A program made the position numbers and the translations under genes. A model generated the notes under the pieces. The model was not told the origin of the DNA. It did no database searches and saw only the letters and a program-made list of their open reading frames with translations. Below, one piece after another: positions 2,122-60,674 of a stretch of DNA of 64,000 nucleotides. Within the stretch, counting starts at the first letter, position 1. Each line of letters opens with the position of its first letter. Source of the stretch: Chromatiales bacterium (lineage in GTDB: Bacteria; Pseudomonadota; Gammaproteobacteria; Chromatiales; Chromatiaceae); the NCBI GenBank assembly GCA_028280505.1, contig JANQLO010000005.1:1-64000 (forward strand), in the 5' to 3' direction.

Positions 2122-2661
2122 TCAGCCCTTGATGGGTTCGAGCACGGCGTCGAGGTTCATGCTGTCACAGAAGTCCATGAATTCGTCGCGCAGTGCGGCG
2201 ATGTGTATATCGGCCGGAATGCCGATGCTCATGCGTACCGAGAACATGGGGGTGCCGGTGTGCGCGGCGGCGTAGCTGCTGGTGGTCATGTCCTCGATAT
2301 TGATTTTCTTATCCGAGAAGAAACTGGCGAGACTGTATACGATGCCCGGGTGATCGAGCGCAACGACATCCACGCCGTAGGGCAGTAAATTGCCTTCGGG
2401 GCTGCGCTCCTCCGTGCGTTTGGTAATGATGACAAGCCCCAGTCGCTCTTGTAGGTCGGGCACCTGGTCTTCCAGCTTGGCCAGCAGATTCCAAGGCCCT
2501 TCGACCATCAAAAGGATCGCGAATTCGCCGCCCAGTACGGTCATGCGGCTGTCGGTGATATTGCAATCGAGCTCGTAGATCGCTTTGGACAACTGATTGA
2601 CGATGCCGGGCTGGTCCTTGCCCAGAGCCGAGATGACGAGATGATTGTTTTTTGCTGGCAT
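2122..2661 (-). CDS. gcvR: Glycine cleavage system transcriptional repressor GcvR (tandem ACT)
   Basis: This is a 179-residue protein of two ACT domains: residues 6-75 (HLVISALGKDQPGIVNQL) and about 92-175 (VDVVALDHPGIVYSL). In E. coli GcvR binds glycine and modulates GcvA, repressing the gcv operon. Length, the DxPGIV motifs in both halves and the neighbourhood (bcp downstream, dapA nearby and divergent) all match GcvR. No gcvTHP genes are in this window. The family call is strong; that the target is gcv is inferred from E. coli. Confidence 0.88.
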   Translation of the reverse strand: MPAKNNHLVISALGKDQPGIVNQLSKAIYELDCNITDSRMTVLGGEFAILLMVEGPWNLLAKLEDQVPDLQERLGLVIITKRTEERSPEGNLLPYGVDVVALDHPGIVYSLASFFSDKKINIEDMTTSSYAAAHTGTPMFSVRMSIGIPADIHIAALRDEFMDFCDSMNLDAVLEPIKG

Positions 2662-2818
2662 GGGGGACGGCCGAAGGGTGCTGGATATGCTCAGAGTGTA
2701 CTGCGCGGATTGGCGCTTGTCTCGCCGGCTTGGTGTCGTGATGGTTTGATGACGTCAGCGCTGTCTGGTATGCGTCGAAAGCGAGTTCCGCCCGTAGGGC
2801 ACGATGATGTGTACCGCT

Positions 2819-3910
2819 TCAATCGTCGTCGATCGTCGCGGCACGTAGTGCTTCAGCGGCCAATTCGGGACTGACCGTGCTCACGAACAGACCGGAGCCC
2901 AGTTCGAAACCGGTAGGGATGCTGGTACGTGGACAGATTTCCAGATGCCAGTGGTAGCTCGCGTCGCAATGATCGTACTCGCTGCCGTGGGGCATCGAGT
3001 GCAGGAAGAAATTGTACTGAACGCCGCCGACGACCTTGTCCAGTCTTGCCATCGTTCGACGCAGCACGCGGGCGAAGTCGACCAGGTCCTCGCGTGTTGC
3101 CTTGAGGAAGTCCGCCTGGTGTTGCAGCGGCAGGATGTGGATTTCCCATTCGAAACGGCTGGCGAAGGGTTTGATCGCGACGAAACGTGTGCCGCGTTCG
3201 ACCACGTACTGGCCTACGCTGATCTTGCGCCGGATCTGGCCGGATTCGCGATCGTAAATGGTCGCTTCGAAGGTGAGCGCTTCGTCGATCAGCGAGCAGA
3301 AAACGCAATGGCCGAACTTGCTGTGATACTCGCGGCTGTGCCGCACCTCGTTTTGGACGTTTTCCGGCACCACCGGTGTCGCGATGATCTGACTGTGGGT
3401 GTGGGGGATGCTGGCACCTGCGGCCGCACCGAAGTTTTTGAAGATGAGTACATATTTGAGCCGGCTGTCCGAGGCGTACAATTCGGCCATGCGTTGCTGG
3501 TAAACCGAGAACAGGTTGGCTAGATGTTCGCGCCCCATCTCGTGCAGGGCGATCCCGTGATTGGGGTTGTCGATGACCACCTCATGGCGACCGTAGCCAT
3601 CAATGACCTGCTGTAGGCCGAATGCGATATTGGTTTGTGCACGGTCGTCGCCGAGCACGGGGTAAAGATTGGGTACGATCCGGATGTCCCAGTCCCGGCT
3701 ATCCGGGTAGCTTTTGATTTCGGGGGGGGTGCGTTCTTCGTTACCCCGGCAGAACGGGCACGTGTCGACCACGGCCCGGGTATCGCGCTCGACGCGCTCT
3801 TCCGCCTTTTTGGGCCGCATGCCGCGTGCGGTCGCAACCAGGACCGATTCGGTCGGAACGATGGGATTGATCCTGATTTCTCGGATGTTGTCGCCTTCAG
3901 CGTCGCTCAT
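2819..3910 (-). CDS. galT: Galactose-1-phosphate uridylyltransferase family protein
   Basis: The 363-residue protein belongs to the HIT-superfamily GalT group. It has an N-terminal zinc-type CPFC (51-54) followed by GNEERTPPEI, an FKNFGAAAGAS segment and the nucleotidyl-transfer motif IPHTHSQ, equivalent to the HPHxQ of GalT, then a C-terminal half with WHLEICPR. GalT exchanges UMP between UDP-glucose and galactose-1-phosphate. Some members of this family prefer other sugar phosphates, and no other Leloir gene is next to it, so the substrate is not certain. It sits between gcvR and dapA, which are adjacent in E. coli. Confidence 0.82.
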   Translation of the reverse strand: MSDAEGDNIREIRINPIVPTESVLVATARGMRPKKAEERVERDTRAVVDTCPFCRGNEERTPPEIKSYPDSRDWDIRIVPNLYPVLGDDRAQTNIAFGLQQVIDGYGRHEVVIDNPNHGIALHEMGREHLANLFSVYQQRMAELYASDSRLKYVLIFKNFGAAAGASIPHTHSQIIATPVVPENVQNEVRHSREYHSKFGHCVFCSLIDEALTFEATIYDRESGQIRRKISVGQYVVERGTRFVAIKPFASRFEWEIHILPLQHQADFLKATREDLVDFARVLRRTMARLDKVVGGVQYNFFLHSMPHGSEYDHCDASYHWHLEICPRTSIPTGFELGSGLFVSTVSPELAAEALRAATIDDD

Positions 3911-4082
3911 GGTCGGTTTCCCACTGTGCTTCTCAGCAAAGTTCTACTGGCAGCCGGGGTTTGGCTCAAGCTGACCGTTTTAATGGGGGCATCGAATCGC
4001 AGGGGCGTAAAATGATCGGTCCCTGGTGCCTGGCAACGCCGCAGGATAAAATGCGCGGCTTGAACCCTAGCGGAGCCAGTAG

Positions 4083-4958
4083 ATGATTCAGGGCAGTCTG
4101 GTCGCCATCGTGACCCCCATGCGTGCCGACGGTGGCGTCGACCGTGAGGCCTTCCGGCGCCTGATCGATTGGCATGTCGCGCAGGGAACCGATGCCATCA
4201 TTGCGGTTGGCACCACCGGCGAGTCCGCGACGCTGGATGAGCAAGAACATTGCGATGTCATCGCGTTGGCGGTCGAACACGCCTCAGGCCGTATCCCGGT
4301 GATCGCCGGTACCGGCGCCAATTCGACCAGCGAGGCGATTTCGCTGACTTCCTGTGCACGCGATGCCGGGGCCGATGCTTGTCTGCTGGTCACGCCCTAT
4401 TACAACAAACCGACGCAGGAAGGTCTGTACCAACACCACAAAGCGGTTGCCGAGGCTGTCCCGATACCCCAGATCCTGTACAACGTTCCGGGCCGCACAG
4501 CGGTCGATATGTTGCCCGAGACGGTGGCCAGGATTGCCGAGATCGACAACGTTATCGGGGTCAAGGAGGCCACGGGGCAGTTGGATCGTATCACGCGTCT
4601 ACGCAACCTGGCCGGGCCCGATTTCGCGATCTACAGCGGCGATGATGCGACCGCGCGCGAGGCCATTTTGCTGGGCGCGAACGGCGATATCTCGGTTACC
4701 GCGAACATTGCACCGGCGGCGATGCACGAAATGTGTGCTGCGGCACTGGCCGGCGATGCGGCCAAGGCCGAAGAGATCGATGGCCGGCTGGCCGGTTTGC
4801 ATCGCGATCTGTTCCTCGAGGCCAATCCGATCCCCGTCAAGTGGGCCTTGGCTGAAATGGGCCATGTCGACAAAGGCATTCGCCTGCCGTTGACCTGGTT
4901 TTCGGCAGAATTTCACAGTCAGCTGCGCAGCGCCATGCAGCAGGCCGGCATAATCTGA
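4083..4958 (+). CDS. dapA: 4-hydroxy-tetrahydrodipicolinate synthase
   Basis: This 291-residue TIM-barrel enzyme condenses pyruvate with aspartate semialdehyde, the first committed step of the lysine/diaminopimelate branch. Catalytic residues are all present at E. coli numbering: T44 and T45 in GTTGES, Y133 and R138 in YNVPGRT, and the Schiff-base lysine K161 in GVKEATG. It is followed after 56 bp by bamC, the same order as dapA-nlpB in E. coli, which supports co-transcription. Confidence 0.98.
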
Positions 4959-5014
4959 ACGTCAATCTACGGTCCGCTGAATCAAGTCGGCGGTCTGCGG
5001 GAATTTCTTTATTT

Positions 5015-6181
5015 ATGATGCAGAAGCCTTTTCGTTACTTTCTTTTGGCCCTGACCGTGCCCGGTCTCGTCGCTTGCGGTAGTTTTAACGTCGATGATGT
5101 CCTGCCGGACAAAAGGGTCGAGTACAAGCGTGAGCGCCAGGCGGAAGTGAACCTCGAGATACCACCCGATCTCACGTCCGATCGGATCAATGACCGTATG
5201 GCGGTCCCGGATAATTTGGGTGGCGTTTCCACCAGCTATTCCGAGTATGTCACCGATCGCCAGTTACGTGGTGCTGACGGTAGCCAAACGCGCGCGGTCG
5301 CCGGCAGTGTGCTGCCGGAGCTCAGTGACATCGAGGTAATGCGTGACGGTGATGTACGCTGGCTACGGGTTGGTGCGCCGGTCGAGGACGTATGGCAGCG
5401 TGTGATCGATTTTTGGCAGGAAAATGGCATTCTGATGGTGGAGCAGGACCCGACGGTCGGTATCATGCGCACTTCCTGGCTGGAAAACCGTGCCGACATT
5501 GGCCGCGATTTTATTACCGACTCCATCCGGCGTGTGTTAGACGGTCTTTATGAGGCAGGTACCCGCGATCAATATCGTATCCGCTTGGAACGTACCAGAC
5601 AGGACGGCACCGAGCTTTATCTCACCCATTTCGGTATGGAAGAACAGGTGATTCAGGGAACGGGGGGCACGATCGAGCGTACCGTCTGGGTGCCGCGCGA
5701 GCGCGATCCCGAGCTTGAGGTCGAGATGTTACGGCGTCTGATGAATTATCTCGGTGCCGCCGACGAGCGCGCGCGCGTTCAGCTTGCGGCGCGCGGACAG
5801 CGCGCGGAGGCCCGTTCGGAGCTGATCAACACGCGTGCCGGTACCGAGCTGCGAATCGAGGAACAGTTCAGCCGTGCCTGGCGCCTTGTCGGTCTGGCGC
5901 TTGACCGGGTCGGTTTCGCGGTCGAGGATCGCGACCGTTCGGCCGGTATCTACTATGTCCGCTACAACGACCCGTCGAAAGAGGATGCGGACAAGGGATG
6001 GCTGTCGAGTTTGGCCTTCTGGCGTAGCGATGACGATATCGACAAGGTCAACCGTTACCAGGTCAAGGTCCTGGGTGAGCCGGGTCTGACCGTGGTGAGT
6101 GTTGGTGACGAACAGGGGGAACCAGACAATTCTCCCACCGCGCTTCGCATTCTTACGTTGTTGAAAGAGCAGATCCGCTGA
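5015..6181 (+). CDS. bamC: Outer membrane protein assembly factor BamC (lipoprotein)
   Basis: This 388-residue lipoprotein has a signal peptide and lipobox LVA-C21. The N-terminal part contains the family's conserved PDKRVEYK and IPPDLTS segments that in E. coli BamC bind BamD, followed by two helix-grip domains (roughly 110-240 and 275-385). It acts at the periplasmic face of the outer membrane in the BAM complex. Length is slightly above E. coli BamC (344). The dapA neighbour is conserved across gammaproteobacteria. Two consecutive ATG codons make the exact start ambiguous by one residue. Confidence 0.93.
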   Translation: MMQKPFRYFLLALTVPGLVACGSFNVDDVLPDKRVEYKRERQAEVNLEIPPDLTSDRINDRMAVPDNLGGVSTSYSEYVTDRQLRGADGSQTRAVAGSVLPELSDIEVMRDGDVRWLRVGAPVEDVWQRVIDFWQENGILMVEQDPTVGIMRTSWLENRADIGRDFITDSIRRVLDGLYEAGTRDQYRIRLERTRQDGTELYLTHFGMEEQVIQGTGGTIERTVWVPRERDPELEVEMLRRLMNYLGAADERARVQLAARGQRAEARSELINTRAGTELRIEEQFSRAWRLVGLALDRVGFAVEDRDRSAGIYYVRYNDPSKEDADKGWLSSLAFWRSDDDIDKVNRYQVKVLGEPGLTVVSVGDEQGEPDNSPTALRILTLLKEQIR

Positions 6182-7023: not shown

Positions 7024-10000
7024 ATGCTGACACTGCGCGGTGCGCCCGCACTCTCCGATTTTCGGCTTACAAAACTGCAAAACCGCTGGCGGCCGTCGAT
7101 CGGTGAGGTCTCGGTTACAACCGCTTTTGTCCATTTCGCAGATATCGATGGCGAGTTGGACGAGACCGATGGCGATATCCTGAGGCGTTTGCTGGATTAC
7201 GGGCCGGCGCATGGGGATTTAAATCCCGCAGGCCGACTGTTCCTGGTTGGCCCTCGCCCCGGGACGATTTCACCCTGGTCCACCAAGGCGACCGACATTG
7301 CACACAACTGTGGTCTTGATCGGGTGCGGCGTATCGAGCGCGGCATTGCCTATTGGATTGGCGGTACCTTCGATACGGGTGCGACCGATGAGATCCGGGC
7401 ACAGATTCACGATCGCATGACCGAGGTCGTGCTGGACGAGTTTCAGCAGGCCGAGGTGCTGTTCCGTCAGGCCCGGCCGCTTCCGTTCACTCAAGTGGAC
7501 GTGCTAGAGGGTGGGCGACCGGCATTGCTCGCGGCGAATAGCGAACTGGGTTTGGCGCTGTCGGACGATGAGATCGATTACCTGGTCGAGAGTTTCACCG
7601 CCCTGGCACGCAATCCGAGCGATGTCGAACTCATGATGTTCGCGCAGGCCAATTCAGAGCATTGTCGACACAAGATATTCAATGCCGAGTGGACCATCGA
7701 TGGCGATGCTCAGGCGCACTCTTTGTTCGCGATGATCCGCAACACGACTGAGCAATCGCCCGGTGATGTGCTATCGGCTTACAAGGACAATGCCGCGGTG
7801 ATTCGCGGTGCGGCCGGCTACCGTTTTTATCCCAATCCGCAGAATGGGGTTTACGGTCGGCATGATGAGGACATCCATATCCTTATGAAGGTCGAGACCC
7901 ACAATCATCCGACCGCGATTTCGCCCGATCCGGGTGCGGCGACCGGATCAGGTGGCGAGATTCGCGATGAGGGCGCAACCGGGATCGGTGCCAAGCCAAA
8001 GGCCGGCTTGTGCGGTTTTTCCGTTTCGAATCTACGGATTCCTGATGCCCGACAACCTTGGGAAACGGATTTCGGCAAACCCGGGCGGATCGTCAGCGCG
8101 CTCGATATCATGCTTGAAGGACCCATCGGCGCGGCGGCATTCAACAACGAATTCGGTCGTCCGAACCTGCTGGGCTATTTCCGTACTTTTGAAGAAAGTG
8201 TGCCCGCAGCTGATGGTGATGAGTTGCGTGGCTATCACAAGCCGGTCATGTTGGCGGGCGGTTTGGGTAACATCCGTGCCGCGCACGTCGAGAAAAAACC
8301 GTTCCCGGCGAACACACCGCTGATTGTGCTCGGTGGTCCGGCGATGTTGATCGGATTAGGCGGCGGTGCGGCCTCGTCGATGGCCTCGGGTACCTCGGCC
8401 GAAGATTTGGATTTCGCGTCGGTGCAGCGTGCCAACCCCGAGATGCAACGTCGCTGTCAGGAGGTGATCGATCGTTGTTGGCAGCGGGGCGATGATAGTC
8501 CGATTCTGTTCATTCATGACGTCGGTGCGGGAGGGCTGTCGAACGCCTTGCCGGAGCTCGTACACGATGCGTCGCGTGGCGGACGGTTTGAATTGCGCGA
8601 CGTACCGAACGACGACCCCGGTATGTCGCCGATGGAGATCTGGTGTAACGAAGCACAGGAGCGCTACGTGCTGGCGGTCGCGCGTGAGCGACTGGCCGAG
8701 TTCGAGGCGATCTGCGCACGCGAGCGCTGCCCCTATGCGGTCGTGGGGAAGGCCCTGGACGAGCAGCGTCTGGAACTCGGCGATCGTCACTTCGATACAC
8801 GGCCGATCGATATGCCGATGTCGCTATTGTTCGGTAAACCGCCGCGCATGCAGCGTGATGTGGTGCGGGTGCAACCCGCATTGCAGGCGCTCGAGCTCGA
8901 TGGCGTCTCGGTAGAACAGGCGGTCGAACGCGTGCTGCGCCTACCCGGCGTCGCCAACAAGACTTTTCTGATCAGCATTGGCGATCGTAGCATCACCGGC
9001 ATGGTTGCCCGCGATCAAATGGTTGGGCCCTGGCAGGTGCCGGTGGCGGATTGCGCGGTTACCGTGGCGGATTACGACGGTTACTGCGGTGAGGCCATGA
9101 GCATGGGCGAACGCACGCCGCTCGCGTTATTGGATGCCGCGGCGTCCGGGCGCATGGCGGTTGGTGAGGCGTTGACCAATCTGGCGGCGGCATCGATCGA
9201 TGCATTGGGTGATATCAAACTGTCGGCGAACTGGATGGCGGCGGCCGGCCATGCGGGTGAGGACGCAAGACTCTACGAAACGGTCAGGGCAGTCGGTATG
9301 GAACTCTGTCCCGCGCTGGGTATTGCCATACCGGTCGGCAAGGATTCGATGTCGATGAAGACGGTGTGGGAACACGAGAGCGAGCGACGGGAGATGACTG
9401 CACCGCTATCGTTGATCGTATCCGCCTTTGCTCCAGTCGCCGATGTACGACTGACCTTGACCCCACAATTGCGTACCGACCAAGGCGATACGGATCTGGT
9501 GCTGATCGATCTCGGCCTGGGCAACAATCGGCTCGGCGGCAGCGCGCTGGCCCAAGTCTATAAACAGATTGGCGATCGTTCGCCGGATATCGAACAGCCG
9601 AAGCTGCTGAAGGCGTTTTTCGGTACGCTCCAGGAACTGAATCGCGATCGTCTGATCCTGGCTTATCACGATCGTTCCGATGGCGGATTGTTTACGACCT
9701 TATGTGAAATGGCCTTTGCCGGCCGTTGCGGATTGGACATCGATCTGGCCGGTCTGGCGAAAGACGATCTCGCCGTGTTGTTCAACGAGGAACTGGGTGC
9801 AGTCTTGCAAGTCAGGCACAGTGATAGTGACGATGTGCTCTGCAGTCTCGAGCGCGCCGGTCTCGGCGACTGTTGCCAATTGATCGGTACGGTTAGCGAG
9901 GATGGCGACATCGTCATTCGGCACGGTGCACGCGAGGTCTACCGTGGTCAACGGATCGCGTTGCAACAGGCTTGGTCGGAGACGACGTTGCGAATGCAAA

Positions 10001-50722: not shown

Positions 50723-52774
50723 TCATTTGCCCCCGGGTAGCCTGAGTTTCACGACGACACCGGGTGGACTGTCCCGGTTTTCCGCGACGGCGCCACCGCC
50801 GTGGAATTCGGCAATCAGCCGCACCAGATAGAGGCCGAGCCCGAGATGGGGTTCGTCCTGGCGTCCGCGGCGGCCGGAGACCATCGATTGAAAGACATCG
50901 GTGTCCGGCGGTAAAGGCGGTCCCTGGTTGCCAACCGACAGCGTAACGCGGTTGTCGCGTGCGATGCATGCCAGTTCGATGGTGCTGCCGGGGATATGGA
51001 AATCGACAGCGTTATTGACCAATTTATCCAGGGCTTGGCTGATGAGATCGGGTACGCCATCGAGCATCAGGGGTTCATCGATGCCCTTTACCGTGAAATC
51101 GATCGATGGATACAGGGTCTGAAAGCCGGCGGTTTGCATGCGCAGCAGGGCGGCGAGATCGAAGCGCTCGTGTTCCGCCTGGCGCATCGCCTGTTCCAAC
51201 CCGGTCGCCTCGCGCAGGCGCATGAGTATGAGTTCCAGGCGTTCGGCGCCGTCGCGTGCGCGTCGAATGTATCCGGCGCGTTCGGTGTCGACAGCCTGAT
51301 CGGCGTTGTCCAGCGAGCTGCGGACCACGGCCAGCGGGGTACGGAGTTCATGCGCCAGGCGTGATGCCATCGCCTCCAGATAGTGGTTGTAGTCGTGCAG
51401 CCGATCGAGCACGCTGGCGAAGCTGCGCCCGAGATCGCCGATTTCGTCTTTCGATTGGTCGGCGTCCAGCCGCCCGACAATGCGGCCGTCATGGCTGACC
51501 GCGGATTCCACTTTGTCGCGCAGGCGGGTGATGCGCGACGCAAGCAGACTGGCGAAAGCCAACAGCCCGAGGCTGGTGACGGCGAACAAGAGTAGCGTCA
51601 CGCCGAACAGCCGCTGCAATGCCAGGTTCTGAATCGACAGAATAGCGTTTGTGGTCTGCTCGACCAGCACCGCACCTTGAATACCCTCGCCGCTGCGGAT
51701 GGGTACCGCGGCACTCACGACGACCGCGTTACCCTGTGGCGGTTGGCGCCGCAAGTTGCCGGAGCGGCCGGCGAGCGCCTCGACCACAGGGGCCATGAAC
51801 AAATGAGTGCGACGTCCGGACAGCTCAGCCAGGGTGTCGGCGTCGCGGGGTAACACGGCGAGAATCAACTCTTGGATGAACCATGGCATTCTCGCCTCGT
51901 CGGCGTGCAATGGTGCATCGCTGTCCAGGCGGCCGGACTGCGCAAGTACCAGTCCTTGATGGTCGGTCACCCAAATACGTGTCGCCGGCGGCGTCAAACC
52001 GACCAGGGCGTTCTGCAGCGGCTCGGATCGCCTGACCACCAAGCCCAGCGCCTCGGCCGGATACATCCTGCCGTTGGCCAGCATCTGTCGGCTGCGACTA
52101 TCGAATATCCGTAGCGAAAGGCGTTCCCGGACCAGTTCGCGCGGTAATCGCAGCTCCAGGGTATAGCCTGACTGGTCCGGCTGCCATTCGCCGCGTATCG
52201 CCGGCTCATATTCCGCGGTCTCAATCGGACTGCCGTCCGACGGCAGTCGTTGTGCCACCACCCAGCCCGGAGCCTCGGGGCGAATGCGGTAGCGTTGGAG
52301 TTCACCGTCCAGGTCGGTCAGTGCGATCTCGACCGCATCGCCATCGGTGCCGAGGTCGTTGGTTGGGTCTTGCACGCCCAAGAACAGATAGGCGTAACGC
52401 TTATCCTCGCCCAGGAAGATACGGGCTTCGAGCGTTTCGTCGATGGATTGCAGTACAGTGAAGTTACGCTCGTAGGTGAGCCATTCGTCACGGTATCCGT
52501 CGAGCTGTGGTGCCTTTTTCAGTGGATGCGCAAATAGGTTACGGAAGGTCAACACCGAACCGGGACGGGCGACACCATGAAATTCATCCGCATAGCCATG
52601 CATGATGTTGGCGACCGAACTCGCGGTAGTACGCAGCGACTGATCCTGGGCCTCGCGCAGAAAAGACTCGGTCTCTTGGATAAAACGATAGCCGGCCCAC
52701 GGGATACCCAATAGGGTCAGTGAGACCAACAGCAGTTTGAACCTGACACGATGCCAGAAGCGGGGCCGGGACAT
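50723..52774 (-). CDS. pdsS: Sortase-system sensor histidine kinase (PdsS-type)
   Basis: A 683-residue membrane kinase: transmembrane helix (about 12-30), a very large periplasmic sensor (about 35-395, with LDGYRDEWLTYE and ELRLPRELVRERLSLRIFDSRSRQM carbohydrate-binding-like pieces), second helix (about 397-420), HAMP, H-box LAHELRTPLAVVRS near residue 475, and ATPase N/G boxes (KLVNNAVDF, GLGLYLVRLIAEFHGG). Length, layout and neighbours fit the proteobacterial dedicated sortase system kinase family (TIGR03785). It likely senses a surface or wall-related signal and works with the response regulator beside it. Confidence 0.88.
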   Translation of the reverse strand: MSRPRFWHRVRFKLLLVSLTLLGIPWAGYRFIQETESFLREAQDQSLRTTASSVANIMHGYADEFHGVARPGSVLTFRNLFAHPLKKAPQLDGYRDEWLTYERNFTVLQSIDETLEARIFLGEDKRYAYLFLGVQDPTNDLGTDGDAVEIALTDLDGELQRYRIRPEAPGWVVAQRLPSDGSPIETAEYEPAIRGEWQPDQSGYTLELRLPRELVRERLSLRIFDSRSRQMLANGRMYPAEALGLVVRRSEPLQNALVGLTPPATRIWVTDHQGLVLAQSGRLDSDAPLHADEARMPWFIQELILAVLPRDADTLAELSGRRTHLFMAPVVEALAGRSGNLRRQPPQGNAVVVSAAVPIRSGEGIQGAVLVEQTTNAILSIQNLALQRLFGVTLLLFAVTSLGLLAFASLLASRITRLRDKVESAVSHDGRIVGRLDADQSKDEIGDLGRSFASVLDRLHDYNHYLEAMASRLAHELRTPLAVVRSSLDNADQAVDTERAGYIRRARDGAERLELILMRLREATGLEQAMRQAEHERFDLAALLRMQTAGFQTLYPSIDFTVKGIDEPLMLDGVPDLISQALDKLVNNAVDFHIPGSTIELACIARDNRVTLSVGNQGPPLPPDTDVFQSMVSGRRGRQDEPHLGLGLYLVRLIAEFHGGGAVAENRDSPPGVVVKLRLPGGK

Positions 52775-52842
52775 GGGGCGTCAATCCCGATCGGAAAAGG
52801 TCATGCTTTTGGCCTCATGCGGTATGCATCGTCATCGCCTGT

Positions 52843-53538
52843 TTATCGTTGAGGCACCCAACGGTAACCCGCGCCATAGACCGCCTCGATCGCATCGAAT
52901 GCCGGATCGGCTTTGAGGAATTTTTTACGGATACGCTTGATATGCGATGTGATGGTGGCCAGGTCGACATAGGTGTCGGCCGCCGCCATCAGTTGCTCGC
53001 GTGTTTTGACATGGCCGGGGTGTTTGGCCAGCGCATGCAGGATCCAGAGTTCGGTGACGGTCAGGTCGATGTCTTGATCTTGCCAGGTCACACGCATCTG
53101 CTCGGGTTTCAGGACCAGTGGGCCGTCACGCACGATTTGTTCGCCCGGCGGGGGTGCGAGCGATGCGTCGACGCGGCGAAAAAGTGCGCTGACGCGGGCA
53201 CTGAGCTGCGGCAGACTGACATCCTTGGTGACATAGTCGTCTGCACCGACCCGTAATCCCGCAACGGTATCGAAATCGCTGTCCCGCGCGGTCAGAAATA
53301 CGATCGGCAGCGTCGCCGAGAGACTGCGCAGCTGACGGCACAGTTCGAATCCCCCGTCGATTTCTTCGCCCAGACCAATATCCAGGATCACCAGATCCGG
53401 TAGCTGGCGGCTCAGCGCGGCACTGGCCTGGGCTCGCTCGCCATAGATCTCCACGCGATAGCCCTGGCGTCGAAACAGGTCGGCATAGTTTTCGCGAATG
53501 GCGGGTTCGTCTTCGACGATGGCAATGGTTCGGGCCAT
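52843..53538 (-). CDS. pdsR: Sortase-system response regulator (PdsR-type)
   Basis: A 231-residue OmpR-type regulator: receiver with E9-D10, phosphoacceptor D53 (LVILDIG), T83 and K105 (YVTKDVS), then a winged helix ending AVYGAGYRWVP. It belongs with the dedicated sortase regulator family (TIGR03787) by position and layout. It is transcribed with the kinase (68-bp gap) and divergently from the target and sortase genes, so it probably controls that promoter. Confidence 0.88.
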   Translation of the reverse strand: MARTIAIVEDEPAIRENYADLFRRQGYRVEIYGERAQASAALSRQLPDLVILDIGLGEEIDGGFELCRQLRSLSATLPIVFLTARDSDFDTVAGLRVGADDYVTKDVSLPQLSARVSALFRRVDASLAPPPGEQIVRDGPLVLKPEQMRVTWQDQDIDLTVTELWILHALAKHPGHVKTREQLMAAADTYVDLATITSHIKRIRKKFLKADPAFDAIEAVYGAGYRWVPQR

Positions 53539-53893
53539 GGTTTTACACGTCATCAACAGCTTGACTCGCAGTTTAACCGCAATTTCGGCTTTGCCCGCGT
53601 ATCGCCACAATCTGCCATTGCATTGCCCGTGCGCCGCGAGCGGCCCGCCATGGGGGCCTGCTTGAATCAAACTCATCACCGGCGCAGGTCTGGAGACCGT
53701 CTTTCGCCACGGAGGGCGCGCTGGGACAAATTCACGTAGCAGGGGAACCGTATGTCGCACTCACCGCAACGGCCATCGAACGGCAATTCATCCAACTGGT
53801 TCTACCTGGGGGCGAGCGGCATTCTACAGCCGCTGAGCGAAGAGTTTCTCTATCGCGCCGCGCAAAACCGCGGAAGACACACCTGCCGTTGGT
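53539..53893. other. Divergent intergenic region of the sortase locus
   Basis: This 355-bp stretch separates pdsR (minus) from the target gene (plus) and should hold both promoters. A 60-codon frame at 53752-53934 begins with a good AGGGGAACCGT site but overlaps the target start; it has a CRWCEQHEHKRRDADA tail and no known family. I treat it as a possible leader, not a firm gene. Confidence 0.45.
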
Positions 53894-55990
53894 GTGAGCA
53901 ACACGAGCACAAGCGGCGCGATGCCGATGCCTGAAGGGAATCGATGGCCCGGTTCGGCACCCCGCGCGTCGTTCGCCGAGATCTTATGCGGCCTTATGGC
54001 TCTGGTGGCCGTGCTGTTTTCATCCGGCCATGCGGGTGCCGAAGAAGGCGGACTGAAGCTATACAACGGTGCCGGTCAGTCCTTGGGGTATGCACCGCAG
54101 TTGCATACCGATGTTGCGATCAAGGTCAGTGGCATGCTCGCCCGGGTTCGGGTGCAGCAACGCTTTCAAAACCCCAGCGACGCCTGGGTCGAGGGCGTTT
54201 ATGTGTTTCCGCTGCCGGAGGATGCCGCGGTCGACCGCCTGCGCATGCTTTATGCCGAGCGTCTGATCGAAGGCGAAATCCAGGAACGCCAACAGGCGGA
54301 AAAAAGCTACGCTGCCGCCAAGGCCAGGGGACAGGGCGCCAGCTTAATGGAGCAGCAGCGGGCGAATGTGTTCACTACGTCGGTCGCCAATATTCCCCCG
54401 GGCGATAGTGTGCAGGTCGAGATCGAGTACCAGCAGAAATTGCATTGGCGTGATGGCGAAATGGCTTTGCGGTTTCCGATGGTCGTCGGGCCGCGCTACA
54501 TTCCGGGTGAACCTTTGGTGACCGAGGGCGGGGGGTTCAGCGCACAGGGTTGGGCGGCGGATACCGACCAGGTACCGGATGCCTCGCAGATTACCCCGCC
54601 GGTCGCGCTGTCGCCCCCGGATCACCTGAATCCAATACGTATCCGAGTCGAGCTTAACAGTGGGATCGAGCTGATGGGCATCGATAGTCCGTTTCATCCG
54701 ATTGACGTCGAACAGATCGGGCCCGGGCGTTATGCGGTCGTGTCGAAGGACGGTAGCGTACCTGCTGAACGCGATTTCGAATTACGCTGGCGACCGGTAT
54801 TGAGCCAACAACCCAGCGCGGCCTTGTTTACCGAAACCCGGAGAGATCGCCATTACGCCTTATTGATGTTGATGCCGCCACAGCCTGAGCGTGCTCCGGA
54901 TCCGGTCGCACGTGAGTTGGTATTGGTGGTGGATACTTCGGGTTCCATGCACGGCGATTCCATTGAGCAGGCTCGGGCGGCATTGCTACAGGCATTACAG
55001 CGTCTGCGACCGATCGATCGGTTCAACATTATTCAATTCAATAGCGGATTCGATGCGCTGTTCCCGCAAGCTCGACCGGCCGATATTGCGCATCTTCGCC
55101 AGGCACGGCGCTATGTCAATGGGCTGCAGGCTGACGGCGGTACCGAAATGTTGCCGGCCTTACGTTATGCGCTGGAAGATCCGCGGCCGAGCGGTTTGTT
55201 GCGACAGATCGTGTTTTTGACCGATGGCGCGGTCGGCAATGAACAGGCTTTGTTCGAGGCGATCGTGCGGCACCTGGGTGACGGTCGTTTGTTCACGGTC
55301 GGTATCGGTTCGGCGCCGAATGCGCTGTTCATGAACGGCGCGGCACGCTTCGGTCGCGGTACTTTCACTTATATCGGTGCGACCGACGAGGTCGAGGCCA
55401 AGGTGAGCGCTTTATTCGATCAGCTCGGTTCGCCTTTGTTGACCGGTTTGCGTCTGCATTGGCAGTCCGATAACGGCCCCTTTTCGCTCAGCCAGACCCC
55501 GGAGCGACTGCCGGATCTGTATGCCGGCGAGCCTTTGGTGGTTGCGATTGCCGCGGACACCGCGCCGCAGCGTGTCGAAATCGAAGGCATGCTCGGTGAT
55601 CGCCCATGGCGGCACCAGGCCTCGCTTGCCGGCGGTGTGCCGGGTGTCGGTGTGCACGCACTATGGGCACGTCATCGCATCGAGGATTGGATGGCGAGCG
55701 GGGTGACGGGGGAATCCGCCGACAAAGTTCGCGAGGCGGTGCTCGAGCTTGCTCTGGAACATCATTTGGTCAGTCGTTTCACCAGTCTCGTCGCTATCGA
55801 CAAAACTCCCGCCCGACCGCAAGACAGCCTCTTGTACAAAGGTGTTGTGCCAACCCGCTTGCCGGCAGGTTGGTCGGCGGCCAAGGTTTTCGGTCAGTTA
55901 CCGCGCACAGCGACGCCGGCACCGCTGTTGGCATTGATCGGATTGGTGTCGTTATTGATTGCGGCCTGGGCGCGTTGGACGCGCGTATGA
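53894..55990 (+). CDS. Marine proteobacterial sortase target protein (VIT and vWA domains)
   Basis: A 698-residue exported protein: hydrophobic signal region (about 28-47), a VIT domain (about 55-200; LKLYNGAGQSLGY, VYVFPLPEDAAVDRLRM), a vWA domain with MIDAS D347-T-S-G-S (about 345-510), and a C-terminal sorting signal LPRTATP (669-675) followed by a hydrophobic helix and WARWTRV. This matches the target family of the dedicated sortase (TIGR03788). It is anchored by the sortase whose gene overlaps its stop. GTG start, uncertain; ATGs at 53921 and 53927 are alternatives. Confidence 0.88.
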   Translation: MSNTSTSGAMPMPEGNRWPGSAPRASFAEILCGLMALVAVLFSSGHAGAEEGGLKLYNGAGQSLGYAPQLHTDVAIKVSGMLARVRVQQRFQNPSDAWVEGVYVFPLPEDAAVDRLRMLYAERLIEGEIQERQQAEKSYAAAKARGQGASLMEQQRANVFTTSVANIPPGDSVQVEIEYQQKLHWRDGEMALRFPMVVGPRYIPGEPLVTEGGGFSAQGWAADTDQVPDASQITPPVALSPPDHLNPIRIRVELNSGIELMGIDSPFHPIDVEQIGPGRYAVVSKDGSVPAERDFELRWRPVLSQQPSAALFTETRRDRHYALLMLMPPQPERAPDPVARELVLVVDTSGSMHGDSIEQARAALLQALQRLRPIDRFNIIQFNSGFDALFPQARPADIAHLRQARRYVNGLQADGGTEMLPALRYALEDPRPSGLLRQIVFLTDGAVGNEQALFEAIVRHLGDGRLFTVGIGSAPNALFMNGAARFGRGTFTYIGATDEVEAKVSALFDQLGSPLLTGLRLHWQSDNGPFSLSQTPERLPDLYAGEPLVVAIAADTAPQRVEIEGMLGDRPWRHQASLAGGVPGVGVHALWARHRIEDWMASGVTGESADKVREAVLELALEHHLVSRFTSLVAIDKTPARPQDSLLYKGVVPTRLPAGWSAAKVFGQLPRTATPAPLLALIGLVSLLIAAWARWTRV

Positions 55991-56562
55991 TGCGTCGTCG
56001 ATTGGTCTTGCCGGCGCTGTTGGTCGGCGTGTTGTGTTTTGGCTATGCGGGTTACATCCCGGCCAAGGCCTGGTTGGCCCAACGCCTGCTCGATCATGCC
56101 TGGGAGCGCCGCCTGGCCGGTTCGGTGCAGGTGCGTCCCTGGCCCTGGGCGGATACCCGGCCGGCGGCGCGTTTGGTACAGCCGCGGTTGAATATCGACC
56201 AGATCGTGCTCGATGGTGCGAGTGGCCGTGTTTTGGCTTTCGGGCCGGGGCATGTGGTTGGCAGTGCTCGCCCGGGAGAGCGGGGCAACATCGTCCTGAG
56301 CGGCCATCGTGATACCCATTTTCGTTGGCTCGACCGGCTTGTGTTGGGTGATGAACTGGTTCTAAAGACGGTCGATGGAGGTCAGCGGCGCTATCGCGTC
56401 GGCCGTCTCGCCGTGCATCATGAATCCGAGGTGGCGTTGCTGGACGCGCATGCCGGAGACCAGCTTCGACTGTTGACCTGTTATCCGTTCGATGCAATCG
56501 ATCCGGGCACGACGGAGCGTTTCGTGGTTACTGCGTTTCCCGCACCGCGTCGATCGGCCTAA
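55987..56562 (+). CDS. Class GN sortase
   Basis: A 191-residue membrane-anchored sortase: N-terminal helix (about 5-24), catalytic H107 (LSGHRDTH), C165 (LLTCYPF) and R178 (TERF) in the standard order. It cleaves the LPRTATP-like signal of the neighbouring target and attaches it to an unknown acceptor. The start ATG overlaps the target stop by 4 bp. Its 3' end overlaps the convergent sensor GGDEF gene by 35 bp. Confidence 0.92.
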   Translation: MMRRRLVLPALLVGVLCFGYAGYIPAKAWLAQRLLDHAWERRLAGSVQVRPWPWADTRPAARLVQPRLNIDQIVLDGASGRVLAFGPGHVVGSARPGERGNIVLSGHRDTHFRWLDRLVLGDELVLKTVDGGQRRYRVGRLAVHHESEVALLDAHAGDQLRLLTCYPFDAIDPGTTERFVVTAFPAPRRSA

Positions 56563-58060
56563 CGTTGTCGGATCTGGCGATGGCAAAGCGGCTTTGTCTC
56601 AACATGCGGCGCTGCTTTGCCGAAGAGAGAGCGCTTTCGGCAGCACGGAATACGTCGCTATGGCTTGGATAGCATTCGGCATCGATGAGGGCCGCACCTA
56701 TGCTGAGATGGCAGTGCATTGCCGTATCCCGCAATTTTTTGCCGGTCTGCTCGTCATGTTCTTGCACCAGCTTGGTCAGCCATTCGTCCAGATCCTGTGA
56801 TGACATTTGGCTAAGGATGAGCGCGAATTCGTCGCCGCCAAGCCGGGCGACAAGATCGGTCGAACGCACCTGCGAGCGTAGGAAATGTGCCGTTTGTTCC
56901 AACATTTCGTCGCCGCCGGTGTGGCCGAATTCATCGTTGATGTGTTTGAAGTCGTTCAGATCGGCGATGATCAGTATCGCCGGTTGTTCGCGCCGTGATT
57001 GCTCATGATGGTGGGCGAGCATCAAATCGAAGTAGCGTCGGTTGAATACGCCGGTCAGCGGATCGGACAGCGATTGTTGGTGCAGCTCTTGGTGTTGGCG
57101 CCGCATCTTAAGCGCCAGTTGTTGCAAGTCCCTCAGCAAGGGTCGTGTTTCCGCCAACTTCGTTGGGATACCGGACGGATTGTAGTTTCCGGCGAGCATC
57201 GCTTGGAGATCGCCGTGGATGCGTCGTACGTCTTTACGGAAATGCAGCAGGGTATGGCTTACCAGGAGTACGATGAGTACACCGGCGATGGAGATTACGG
57301 TAATGTCGATCATGACGCGATCGGCGATCGGCGAATGCGAAATCGGCAGCGGTCGCGTCAGCACCAGTTTCCAAGAGGTATCCGGTACGTCGGCGAGGTA
57401 GTTTTGCGATTCAGTGTCCGTGTCTGCGTTGCCCACGATCAGTTTGGCGCGACCATCGCGCCCCAGCAACGAAAAGCGGTCGCCGTTACGGGCCATGTTG
57501 CGCAGCAGATCCTGCAATACATCGAGACGGAAGCTTACGAACAGCGTGCCGGCCCGCTCTCCGCTGGGCGATGTGACCTTGGCCAAAAGGTCGAAGTGTT
57601 CGAGTCCACTGACATCGGTGTGCAGCAAGGGGTATTCGATTGCACCGCCGTCGAGGAAGGTGTGCATGTCCATCTGGCACGCAGCACCGACACGTAATGC
57701 CAGGGGATTGCCGAAGACGACCCCGTCAGGCCCTGCGAGTGCGGTGCCGAGACTACCGGGCAGTACACGTCCGACCGCACGCGACCAATCGGCGATCTCC
57801 GGCTCTTCGCCAAACTCGATTAAATTGATGGCCTCTGGATTTGTCGCAATGAGTTGGAGTATCCCTTGATAGAATCGTATCTGATTGCGGATGGCGATCG
57901 CGGCATTGCGCACAGTATGGCGGGCATCGCTTGCGTGCCGATTTTCGAACGCTCGATAGTCGTCGTCGATCAGGTACAGTCCTGTCGCGGTCGTGATCAC
58001 GGCAACGCTGATCAGTAGTGCGACCAGGATCGCAATGGTTTTGCCGATTGATAGATGCAT
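56528..58060 (-). CDS. Cache-type sensor diguanylate cyclase
   Basis: A 510-residue membrane protein: helix 7-29, a periplasmic double-Cache-like sensor (about 35-245), helix about 248-270, coiled linker, and a GGDEF domain with intact LSDPLTGVFNRRYFDLML, ADLNDFKHINDEFGHTGGDEML and RLGGDEFAL, so it should make c-di-GMP. Faces the sortase gene and overlaps it antisense by 35 bp. Its signal is unknown. Confidence 0.9.
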   Translation of the reverse strand: MHLSIGKTIAILVALLISVAVITTATGLYLIDDDYRAFENRHASDARHTVRNAAIAIRNQIRFYQGILQLIATNPEAINLIEFGEEPEIADWSRAVGRVLPGSLGTALAGPDGVVFGNPLALRVGAACQMDMHTFLDGGAIEYPLLHTDVSGLEHFDLLAKVTSPSGERAGTLFVSFRLDVLQDLLRNMARNGDRFSLLGRDGRAKLIVGNADTDTESQNYLADVPDTSWKLVLTRPLPISHSPIADRVMIDITVISIAGVLIVLLVSHTLLHFRKDVRRIHGDLQAMLAGNYNPSGIPTKLAETRPLLRDLQQLALKMRRQHQELHQQSLSDPLTGVFNRRYFDLMLAHHHEQSRREQPAILIIADLNDFKHINDEFGHTGGDEMLEQTAHFLRSQVRSTDLVARLGGDEFALILSQMSSQDLDEWLTKLVQEHDEQTGKKLRDTAMHCHLSIGAALIDAECYPSHSDVFRAAESALSSAKQRRMLRQSRFAIARSDNVRPIDAVRETQ

Positions 58061-58331: not shown

Positions 58332-60674
58332 ATGGTTGCCAAAAAAAGGCGTCCGACCAAACGCGGCAAGCCGCGTAGAAAAACAAGCGGTCGAGCGAAA
58401 AGCCGCACGGGTTCGCGTGGCTGGTTGAAAGGTCTGGTCGCATTGCTGGTGTTGGCCGTGCTGGTTGTCGGTGGCTACTCGGTCTATCTGGGCAAGACGG
58501 TTCGGGTGAAGTTCGACGGCAAACGTTGGGCCGTGCCGGCGCAGATCTATGCGCGGCCGCTGGAACTCTATGTGGGGGCCGGCGTGTCGGCCGACCAACT
58601 CGAGACCGAGCTGGAGTTTCTGGGCTATCGCCACGTCGGTAAGGTCTTCGGACCGGCGCAGTGGTCGCGTAAGGGGCGCCGCTTCATTATTCACACTCGC
58701 AATTTCGCCTTCTGGGATGGTGAGGAGACGGCGCGCAAACTGTCGGTTGAAACCGGTGGTTCCGGGGTTGTCGGGTTGAGAGACAAGGCGGGTCGGTCGC
58801 TTGATTTGGTGCGGCTGGAGCCGGCGCTGGTCGGCAGTATCTATCCTGCGCACAATGAAGATCGCGTATTGGTTGCGCGCAGCGATCTACCGGATCATTT
58901 GATCAACGGGTTGCTTGCGGTCGAGGACCGGCGTTTTTACGAACATTCGGGAGTCGACCTGCGTGGTATTGCGCGAGCGCTATGGGCCAATCTGCGTGCG
59001 GGCAAGGCGGTGCAGGGTGGTAGCACCCTGACCCAGCAGTTGGTCAAGAATTTCGTCTTAACGCCGGAACGTTCGCTTCGGCGAAAGGTGAACGAGGCGC
59101 TGATGGCGTTGATCGTGGACGCTCGGTACGACAAGGACGAGATCCTCGAGGCCTATGCCAATGAGATTTTTCTCGGGCAGGACGGCGATCGCGCGATTCA
59201 CGGTTTTGGGCTTGGCGCGCATTTCTATTTTAACCGGCCGCTGAAGGAGCTACGTCTGCACGAGACGGCGTTGCTCGTTGGATTGGTCAAAGGGGCCTCC
59301 TACTATAATCCGCGACGTCATCCCAAACGTGCGTTAAAGAGACGTAATTTGGTGATCGATCAGATGCAGGCCCAGGGTTTCGTCGGTGCGGCCGAGGCGG
59401 GTAAGGCGCGTCAGGCAAAACTCGGCGTGACGACACGCGGTGTGGTGCATGCGCACCGGGTGCCGGCCTTCGTCGATCTCGTGCGGCGTCAGTTGCGGCG
59501 TGACTACCGCGAGGAAGACCTCACCTCAGAAGGACTGCGGATCTTCTCGACGCTCGATCCCTGGGTGCAGCGCCAGGCGAGCGATACCGCCAAACGTCGC
59601 TTGGCGAGTATCGAGCGTTCGCGCAAGCTGGCGTCCGGCAGTTTACAAACGGCACTGGTGGTCGCATCGGCGCAGAACGGTGAGATTCAAGCGCTGGTCG
59701 GTGGTCGCAACGCGGGTTTCGCCGGCTTCAATCGTGCGCTGGATGCGGTGCGTCCGATTGGTTCCCTGGTCAAGCCCGCGGTCTATTTGACCGCGTTGTC
59801 GCGGCCCGAACGCTATAACCTCGGCACCTGGATCGAAGATCGCGAGGTCGATCTGACTTTGGAAGGCGGGCAACGCTGGCAGCCGCGTAATTACGATCGC
59901 CAGGTATATGGTGAGGTGGTCTTACACGAGGCCTTGGCGCGTTCGCTTAATCTGGCGACGGTCAATCTCGGTTTGGAGCTCGGTTTGCCACGGGTGATCG
60001 GGACGTTGCGCAGTCTCGGTGTGCAACGCACTGTCCCCGCTTATCCTTCGGTGCTGCTAGGGGCCGTATCGCTATCGCCGCTTGAGGTCACCCAGGTTTA
60101 TCAAAGCCTCGCGTCCGGCGGTTTTCGTTCGCCCTTGCGGGCCATCCGCAATGTGCTCGATGCGCAACAGCAGCCGTTACAGCGATATCCACTCACGGTC
60201 GAGCAGGCGGCGGACCCGGCGGCGGTTTTCTTGCTTAATCGTAATCTGGTCGAAGTCGCTGAAAGTGGCACGGCGGCTGCGTTGGGTCGGCAACTGCCGG
60301 CCGGTCTGCAGGTCGCCGGTAAGACCGGCACCACCAACGATTTACGCGACAGCTGGTTTGCGGGTTTTTCGGCCGACCGCGTGGCGGTGGTCTGGATCGG
60401 TCGTGACGACAATGCCTCGACCGGCCTGACCGGTGCCCGTGGTGCGCTGCCGGTGTGGGGGGATTTGATGAGTCGAATCGACAATGCCTCCTTGCAGCTG
60501 GTACCGCCACCGGGGGTCGAGTATCACTGGGTCGATCCGGAGGGTCGGTTGGCGGCGGAGGGTTGTGCCGGCGCGGTGGCTTTCCCCTATATCAGCGGAT
60601 CGGAGCCGACCGAACGCTCGGATTGTGCGGAAACGCGTGGATTGGGGGGTTTCTTGCGAGGCCTGTTCGATTAA
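58332..60674 (+). CDS. mrcB: Penicillin-binding protein 1B
   Basis: A 780-residue bifunctional peptidoglycan synthase: basic cytoplasmic tail, helix (about 32-54), UB2H-like region, glycosyltransferase with catalytic E197-type motif LLAVEDRRFYEHSG, and transpeptidase with nucleophile S478 (GSLVKP), SLN and KTG (K664, VAGKTGTTND). RFYEHSGVDLRG and GGSTLTQQL are the family's GT hallmarks. It builds the cell wall with the outer membrane activator LpoB. Confidence 0.96.
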   Translation: MVAKKRRPTKRGKPRRKTSGRAKSRTGSRGWLKGLVALLVLAVLVVGGYSVYLGKTVRVKFDGKRWAVPAQIYARPLELYVGAGVSADQLETELEFLGYRHVGKVFGPAQWSRKGRRFIIHTRNFAFWDGEETARKLSVETGGSGVVGLRDKAGRSLDLVRLEPALVGSIYPAHNEDRVLVARSDLPDHLINGLLAVEDRRFYEHSGVDLRGIARALWANLRAGKAVQGGSTLTQQLVKNFVLTPERSLRRKVNEALMALIVDARYDKDEILEAYANEIFLGQDGDRAIHGFGLGAHFYFNRPLKELRLHETALLVGLVKGASYYNPRRHPKRALKRRNLVIDQMQAQGFVGAAEAGKARQAKLGVTTRGVVHAHRVPAFVDLVRRQLRRDYREEDLTSEGLRIFSTLDPWVQRQASDTAKRRLASIERSRKLASGSLQTALVVASAQNGEIQALVGGRNAGFAGFNRALDAVRPIGSLVKPAVYLTALSRPERYNLGTWIEDREVDLTLEGGQRWQPRNYDRQVYGEVVLHEALARSLNLATVNLGLELGLPRVIGTLRSLGVQRTVPAYPSVLLGAVSLSPLEVTQVYQSLASGGFRSPLRAIRNVLDAQQQPLQRYPLTVEQAADPAAVFLLNRNLVEVAESGTAAALGRQLPAGLQVAGKTGTTNDLRDSWFAGFSADRVAVVWIGRDDNASTGLTGARGALPVWGDLMSRIDNASLQLVPPPGVEYHWVDPEGRLAAEGCAGAVAFPYISGSEPTERSDCAETRGLGGFLRGLFD

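Follow-up and report, generated by a model that had tools for sequence, protein, structure and literature searches.

A dedicated sortase system of four genes occupies positions 50,723 to 56,562 of the DNA analyzed here, a stretch of 64,000 nucleotides (the window; positions 1 to 64,000 of contig JANQLO010000005.1, assembly GCA_028280505.1) from a Chromatiales bacterium of the Chromatiaceae. Sortases are enzymes familiar above all from Gram-positive bacteria. The four open reading frames (ORFs) are intact: a sensor kinase and its response regulator are encoded on the minus strand, divergent from the sortase target and the sortase on the plus strand, and the sortase ATG lies over the target TGA in a 4-base overlap (Table 1). 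An earlier note, prepared from the sequence alone, had described one locus of this composition (PdsS and PdsR types on one strand, a VIT/vWA target and class GN sortase on the other) in which the sortase overlaps the target stop by 4 bp, and the positions, families and overlap are all borne out. Family membership was judged by NCBIfam cut-offs of 158.25 bits for TIGR03784, 551.65 for TIGR03788, 335.7 for TIGR03787, 612.2 for TIGR03785, 152.2 for TIGR03789 and 165 for NF033746. The sortase (TIGR03784, 201.3 bits, E 8.9e-60), the target (TIGR03788, 761.3 bits, E 7.6e-229) and the regulator (TIGR03787, 362.5 bits, E 7.7e-109) score over these values. The kinase matches TIGR03785 over its full length and stays under (572.2 bits, E 1.5e-171); among the profiles that the note had named for confirmation, TIGR03787 and TIGR03788 thus recognize their genes at cut-off and TIGR03785 does not.

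Table 1. Features of the dedicated sortase locus, its neighbors and a second VIT/vWA pair of the same genome (window positions unless a contig or locus is named)
Feature	Position	Strand	Basis
PdsS-like sensor histidine kinase, 683 amino acids (aa)	50723-52774	-	TIGR03785 residues 11-680; HisKA + HATPase_c
CBM9-like sensor domain, kinase residues 78-240, predicted periplasmic	52055-52543	-	family profile
Second sensor piece, Cache/PAS-like, about kinase residues 250-375	51650-52027	-	relatives + model secondary structure
PdsR response regulator, receiver + winged helix	52843-53538	-	TIGR03787
Sortase target, VIT + vWA, 698 aa by longest reading, start uncertain	53894 (GTG)-55990	+	TIGR03788
VIT domain, residues 71-179	54104-54430	+	PF08487, E 1.1e-35
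vWA domain, residues 341-491, D347/S349/S351/T417/D444	54914-55366	+	PF13768, E 4.1e-23
Sorting motif LPRTAT, residues 669-674, predicted cut T672/A673	55898-55915	+	pattern + position
C-terminal hydrophobic helix, residues 676-697	55919-55984	+	structure model + hydropathy
Class GN sortase, 191 aa, N-terminal hydrophobic segment, H107/C165/R178	55987-56562	+	TIGR03784
Diguanylate cyclase, convergent with sortase	56528-58060	-	GGDEF, 120.5 bits against cut-off 37.4
Penicillin-binding protein 1b, two genes downstream of sortase	58332-60674	+
Second VIT/vWA protein + rhombosortase pair	L089 735-3664 (contig C81, about 2234-5163)		TIGR03788/TIGR03902

The database record of the target, P0120, has 664 aa. 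The five metal-site residues of the vWA domain are invariant in all 66 aligned rows, and the tail runs from LPRTATP through the hydrophobic helix to RWTRV. In the structure model, residues 669-674 have a predicted local distance difference test score (pLDDT) under 50 and are followed by the helix, which is as a flexible cut site near the membrane would look. The tail matches the LPXTG anchor model weakly (16.8 bits, cut-off 15.9, E 0.008) and stays under the cut-off of the LPxTATN model (14.4 of 32 bits). Conservation of the tail was followed with a widened motif, [LM]Px[TS][AG][TS], set after exceptions to a stricter motif had been seen; in this form it is present in 119 of the best 120 of 7991 target homologues (the window's own target among them), and the remaining one has AKTATP. 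Sortase loci were taken as the best 80 of 114, from named genomes (genomes and loci are numbered G and L below). A target-like ORF lies upstream of the sortase in 79 of these, several of them clipped by contig ends, and 71 of the 79 carry the widened motif; it is degenerate in two (L018, L028), and in six Arenimonas-type loci, one of them on a contig labelled Rhizobium (L027), only NATP is seen. Four of four Arenimonas loci inspected (L021, L022, L031, L032) also have a conserved ORF of about 60 aa between target and sortase. The eightieth locus, L088 of a Rhizobium isolate, encodes a target (9199-9807, plus strand) that has lost most of VIT/vWA by internal deletion and keeps LPQTATR and the helix; the adjacent sortase frame stays open.

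The sortase is the single TIGR03784 match in its genome, which was searched as 4,653,815 bases in 85 contigs (99.98% complete). H107, C165 and R178 are invariant in an alignment of 81 sortases, and we take them to be the catalytic His, Cys and Arg positions of sortases. By profile the next-best class is class D, whose known members are Gram-positive (82.6 bits for the LPxTATN-specific SrtD model and 82.0 for NF033746, both under their cut-offs), and by sequence the best match in the Protein Data Bank (PDB) is 2ln7. In the part of PMC4498605 concerned with it, 2ln7 is the Bacillus anthracis class D sortase, and the same His-Cys-Arg pattern is described there. The B. anthracis class D enzyme cleaves LPNTA at the T-A bond, with m-diaminopimelate as its acceptor, according to the relevant passage of PMC3297441.

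As far as LPxTA-type signals go, the sortase appears dedicated to a single substrate in its genome, as the earlier note had supposed. Codons for [L/F]PxTAT occur 30 times, all read in frame, and the target alone has a membrane helix and a stop behind the motif. Its hydrophobic stretch of 16 residues averages 2.57 in hydropathy and its stop comes 30 codons after the first codon of the motif, whereas none of the remaining 29 matches exceeds a hydropathy of 1.30. The motif by itself is not enriched, a reversed control pattern giving 62 genome matches against 30. A profile of the tail found the target at E 5.2e-16 and the next sequence at 0.18 (1.2e-14 and 0.24 with a cleaned alignment), so that the genome search gave no second tail. 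Within the window, the target is the only one of 577 six-frame open stretches of at least 60 codons with [LMFYIV]Px[TSGN][AG] near its end and a hydrophobic stretch, in keeping with the note's statement that the window holds no other LPxTA-type protein. These tests address signals of this type and would miss a substrate with a very different motif.

The start of the regulator is likely the ATG at 53538, because the family match begins at residue 77 of the longest ORF (53760-52843). For the kinase, a Foldseek search with the whole model (pLDDT 83.4 overall) returned histidine kinases and related sensor kinases as the best 50 of 1362 matches, and the sensor was therefore examined by domain profile. 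Residues 78-240 are beta-rich in the model, mostly over 90 in pLDDT, and a profile of 16 sensor domains, the window's included, matches a PDB beta-xylanase domain (7nwn, E 7.8e-6). At E up to 1, CBM9_1 (PF06452) matches 5 of the 16 sensor domains (best E 5.2e-07) and 10 of 66 full kinases (best E 8.1e-06). A carbohydrate-binding-like sensor piece is thus supported, at the level of sequence, as a family trait, and to that extent the note's large sensor with carbohydrate-binding-like pieces holds. The dCache_1 model matches 15 of the 66 kinase relatives at the same threshold and does not match the window copy.

The distribution of the system was surveyed across the order in a sample of 147 genomes out of a larger group, with counts read from printed tables and then recounted. 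Sortase matches were found in 47 genomes (46 over cut-off) and targets over cut-off in 46, with target pieces at contig ends in G085 and G119. The union is 48 genomes; the three with only one whole gene of the pair (G048, G085, G119) are clipped by contig ends, and the only target without a sortase match, in G048, ends 262 bases from a contig start. Six of the seven sampled genomes of the window's own genus have sortase and target over cut-off. PdsS-type kinases, defined by scores of at least 293 bits (no other kinase is above 148), are present in 51 genomes, namely 47 of the 48 that bear the system (all but G083) and G005, G086, G106 and G123, which have no sortase. Since only 17 of those 47 pass the TIGR03785 cut-off and 30 lie under it, the 572 bits of the window kinase are usual for the clade; on its sequence the kinase is labelled PdsS-like here and is not filed as a TIGR03785 equivalog.

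G123, of the window's genus (L138), amounts to a natural knock-out. Its genes run parC, an ABC pair, a kinase broken into two ORFs and then penicillin-binding protein 1b; regulator, target and sortase are not found at this locus, nor is the diguanylate cyclase. Decay of the kinase where its partners have been lost fits a functional coupling. Decay is also seen in other relatives, as stops in the sortase, target and PdsO-like gene of G144, stops or frame breaks in the kinase, target and sortase of G132, and one stop in the target match of G135.

PdsO (TIGR03789), a further member of such systems, carries a Pal/OmpA-type domain. A PdsO-like gene lies immediately upstream of the target in 35 of the 48 genomes; most of these genes are themselves under the cut-off, yet they align over almost the whole model, mostly from position 22-60 to 242 (from 105 in the broken G144). 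Among the matches listed, none lies there in the other 13 (the window's genome and five sortase-bearing congeners, three members of genus g11, and G070, G083, G085 and G087), with the contig ending upstream of the target in G083 and G085, and G133 and G078 being counted irrespective of contig extent; the best PdsO match in each of the thirteen genomes is weak or limited to the OmpA part. The TIGR03789 cut-off itself is passed in one of the 147 genomes, G086, which is without sortase. In the window's own genome seven OmpA-type matches were obtained, none over cut-off (best 68.5 of 152.2 bits, model positions 116-240), and therefore the word "complete", which the earlier note had applied to the system, is right for the four-gene core only. 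In G086 (L102) and G106, a PdsO-like gene and a PdsS-type kinase were observed together with no sortase match and no target over cut-off, and PdsO and kinase may work without a sortase there.

Diaminopimelate is the usual stem residue of Gram-negative peptidoglycan. Because the His-Cys-Arg set is invariant and the best PDB match is 2ln7, with the cut and acceptor described for the B. anthracis enzyme and this residue at hand in a Gram-negative wall, a cut between T and A with diaminopimelate as acceptor appears the most likely chemistry. The best explanation of the whole, to which we assign a probability of roughly 0.5, is class D-like cleavage at LPRT/AT and joining to peptidoglycan diaminopimelate, within a kinase-regulated, heavy-chain-like adhesin system. 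Target and sortase would both be inner-membrane proteins whose working parts face the periplasm, where the sortase probably cuts between Thr and Ala and, by analogy, would join the new C-terminus of the target to a diaminopimelate side-chain amine of peptidoglycan precursors. Through its CBM9-like domain the kinase would sense a carbohydrate or some other cue from the envelope, and the regulator would turn on target and sortase together; once anchored, the target would be an adhesive scaffold of the envelope, dependent on metal and built like a heavy chain. PdsO may help to place the target in most relatives, a help that would be missing or replaced in the window's genome.

Several points weigh against this explanation. 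Both cutting and joining are predicted, and the acceptor is taken from analogy; the sortase is far under the class D cut-off (82 against 165 bits), a resemblance only. The six Arenimonas-type loci keep an adjacent sortase and target whose tail lacks the LPxT part. On the sensory side, profile searches with the window's sensor copy by itself gave no CBM match, and the kinase occurs without any sortase in G005, G086 and G106 (in two of them beside a PdsO-like gene), because of which it may have other duties. The OmpA-like, Pal-like PdsO partner was not found in the window's genome, and most rhizobial sortase/target pairs have no kinase-regulator pair of PdsS/PdsR type next to them.

One alternative, possible at rather long odds, is that the sortase is mainly a protease, which would cut the target off its helix and let water resolve the thioester, the target being freed into the periplasm or passed to an exporter with no covalent anchor. 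A Gram-negative protein could presumably reach the outer surface only if it came free of the wall, and a second VIT/vWA protein of the same genome bears on the question. This protein of 770 aa on contig C81 (216 bits to TIGR03788, under cut-off) is followed directly by the gene of a rhombosortase, the sole genome match over cut-off to TIGR03902 (102.6 against 84 bits). Its tail scores 9.5 of 15.5 bits with GlyGly-CTERM and 16.5 of 20 with MYXO-CTERM and is GlyGly-like by eye only; a search of the genome with the GlyGly-CTERM model gave no match at E up to 1. The portion of PMC3237569 that deals with these proteins describes VIT/vWA members with LPXTG, GlyGly-CTERM or PEP-CTERM tails, the LPXTG form being neighbored by the gene of a dedicated sortase (TIGR03784) of Gram-negative bacteria, and places rhombosortase in the rhomboid protease family. 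Since the second VIT/vWA protein adjoins such an enzyme, cutting alone may serve the family. By its sequence, this one genome holds two dedicated processing pairs for the same VIT/vWA family. The protease explanation is nevertheless opposed by the sortase fold with its complete His-Cys-Arg set, by nearest solved relatives that are transpeptidases, and by the Pal/OmpA-type neighbor that most relatives keep.

It is unlikely, in our view, that the sortase transfers the target to some other acceptor, be it a glycan, an amine of a protein, or a piece of lipid or lipopolysaccharide, much as heavy chains are transferred to hyaluronan. The suggestion derives from the target model, which over almost its whole length matches the fold of inter-alpha-inhibitor heavy chain 1 (6fpy), the animal protein whose C-terminus becomes ester-linked to glycans, as stated in the pertinent section of PMC7170535. 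The CBM9-like sensor would suit a sugar acceptor, as would a rhizobial homologue regulated with exopolysaccharide genes in the passages on it in PMC10659215 and PMC5498481. A common fold is no proof of common chemistry, however; animal heavy chains have no sortase signal, and the sortase is nearest to enzymes with amine nucleophiles. In a bolder form, which we regard as quite unlikely, the locus would be a bacterial counterpart of heavy-chain transfer: the sortase would hand the C-terminus of a heavy-chain-like, metal-site target to an envelope glycan to yield a self-associating matrix protein in covalent attachment, controlled by a sugar-sensing kinase, and the same protein in rhizobia would be SMc01580, the long-known ChvI target of the acid-stress/exopolysaccharide regulon.

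Sinorhizobium and Ensifer loci of the set hold the sortase/target pair with LPQTAT tails (e.g., L026, L049, L053), and it is from these loci that the pair is known, the S. meliloti sortase gene itself lying outside those looked at. Most rhizobial loci have no PdsS-type kinase beside the pair, and regulator matches are 5 kb or more away at 28-33% identity. In a table of PMC6637203, SMc01580 of S. meliloti is paired with an Ensifer "marine proteobacterial sortase target protein" (80%) and is up-regulated on days 5-7 of symbiosis. ChvI bound 3 of 19 tested upstream regions, that of SMc01580 among them, in an earlier study as retold in a passage of PMC3687685; the signal of an SMc01580 fusion increases at pH 6 and when JspA is overexpressed (the corresponding passage of PMC10659215); PMC2651895 assigns the gene, described as encoding a hypothetical protein with a signal peptide, to an acid-response cluster, and PMC5498481 lists it with exo genes. 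The SMc01580 passages of PMC10659215, PMC3687685, PMC2651895 and PMC5498481 make no mention of a sortase. The published regulation of SMc01580 can now be attached to the target family, and the earlier note's view that the biology is not known is nearly true with this exception.

That the locus is an unexpressed or decaying remnant is highly improbable, for although decay is evident in G144, G132, G135 and G123 and in the internally deleted target of L088, the four ORFs of the window are intact, the invariant catalytic and metal-site residues are present, and both sortase and target score over cut-off in six of the seven genomes sampled from the genus.

Among neighboring genes, the diguanylate cyclase that lies between sortase and penicillin-binding protein 1b in the window was not seen in G123, the genome also lacking regulator, target and sortase. 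Penicillin-binding protein 1b is likewise downstream in G032 and G123 of the same genus (L093, L138) and in two loci of another genus (L097, L100). It was considered as a partner of the sortase system and rejected: in a survey of 28 representative loci and the window, many of them ending early, its cluster had only four members (L009, L010, L011 and the window), which argues for a shared chromosomal position.

A 2023 paper still calls the role of sortase in Gram-negative bacteria unknown in the passage that touches on it (PMC10581121), and the titles and abstract openings listed from the open-licence literature showed no test of a Gram-negative class GN sortase, which is no proof of absence. 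With one enzyme, one detectable substrate and one predicted scissile bond, the locus is a clean case in which to approach that role, and heavy-chain fold and CBM9-like sensor would point to matrix or adhesion more than to simple wall display. Function is testable in a laboratory strain, in which reporter fusions to SMc01580 exist, pH 6 induces it and ChvI regulates it directly. To the earlier note, the core reading of which is right, the present analysis adds the corrections on the kinase cut-off and PdsO and joins published regulation to the target family.

In comparison with known systems, the rhombosortase/GlyGly-CTERM pairs, as the excerpt from PMC3237569 presents them, share with the window's locus the VIT/vWA family, a C-terminal signal and an enzyme in the adjacent gene, whereas enzyme and tail are unrelated to this sortase and its LPRTAT tail. 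Inter-alpha-inhibitor heavy chain 1 forms an ester to glycans in animals and has no sortase signal, while the window's target is by prediction anchored in a bacterial membrane. Class D sortases (2ln7 and the LPxTATN-specific SrtD) have the LPxTA(T) signal in common with the window's system and, unlike it, function in sporulating cells in what the relevant parts of PMC3297441 and PMC4498605 report. The closest counterpart is the proteobacterial dedicated sortase system (TIGR03784, TIGR03788, TIGR03785 and TIGR03787, with PdsO as TIGR03789). The window differs from it in a kinase under its cut-off and a genome with no PdsO match over cut-off, and shares with it three of four core genes over cut-off, the adjacent sortase and target and the divergent regulator and kinase; judged by these features, the locus is a further example of a type of dedicated sortase system already known from genomes.

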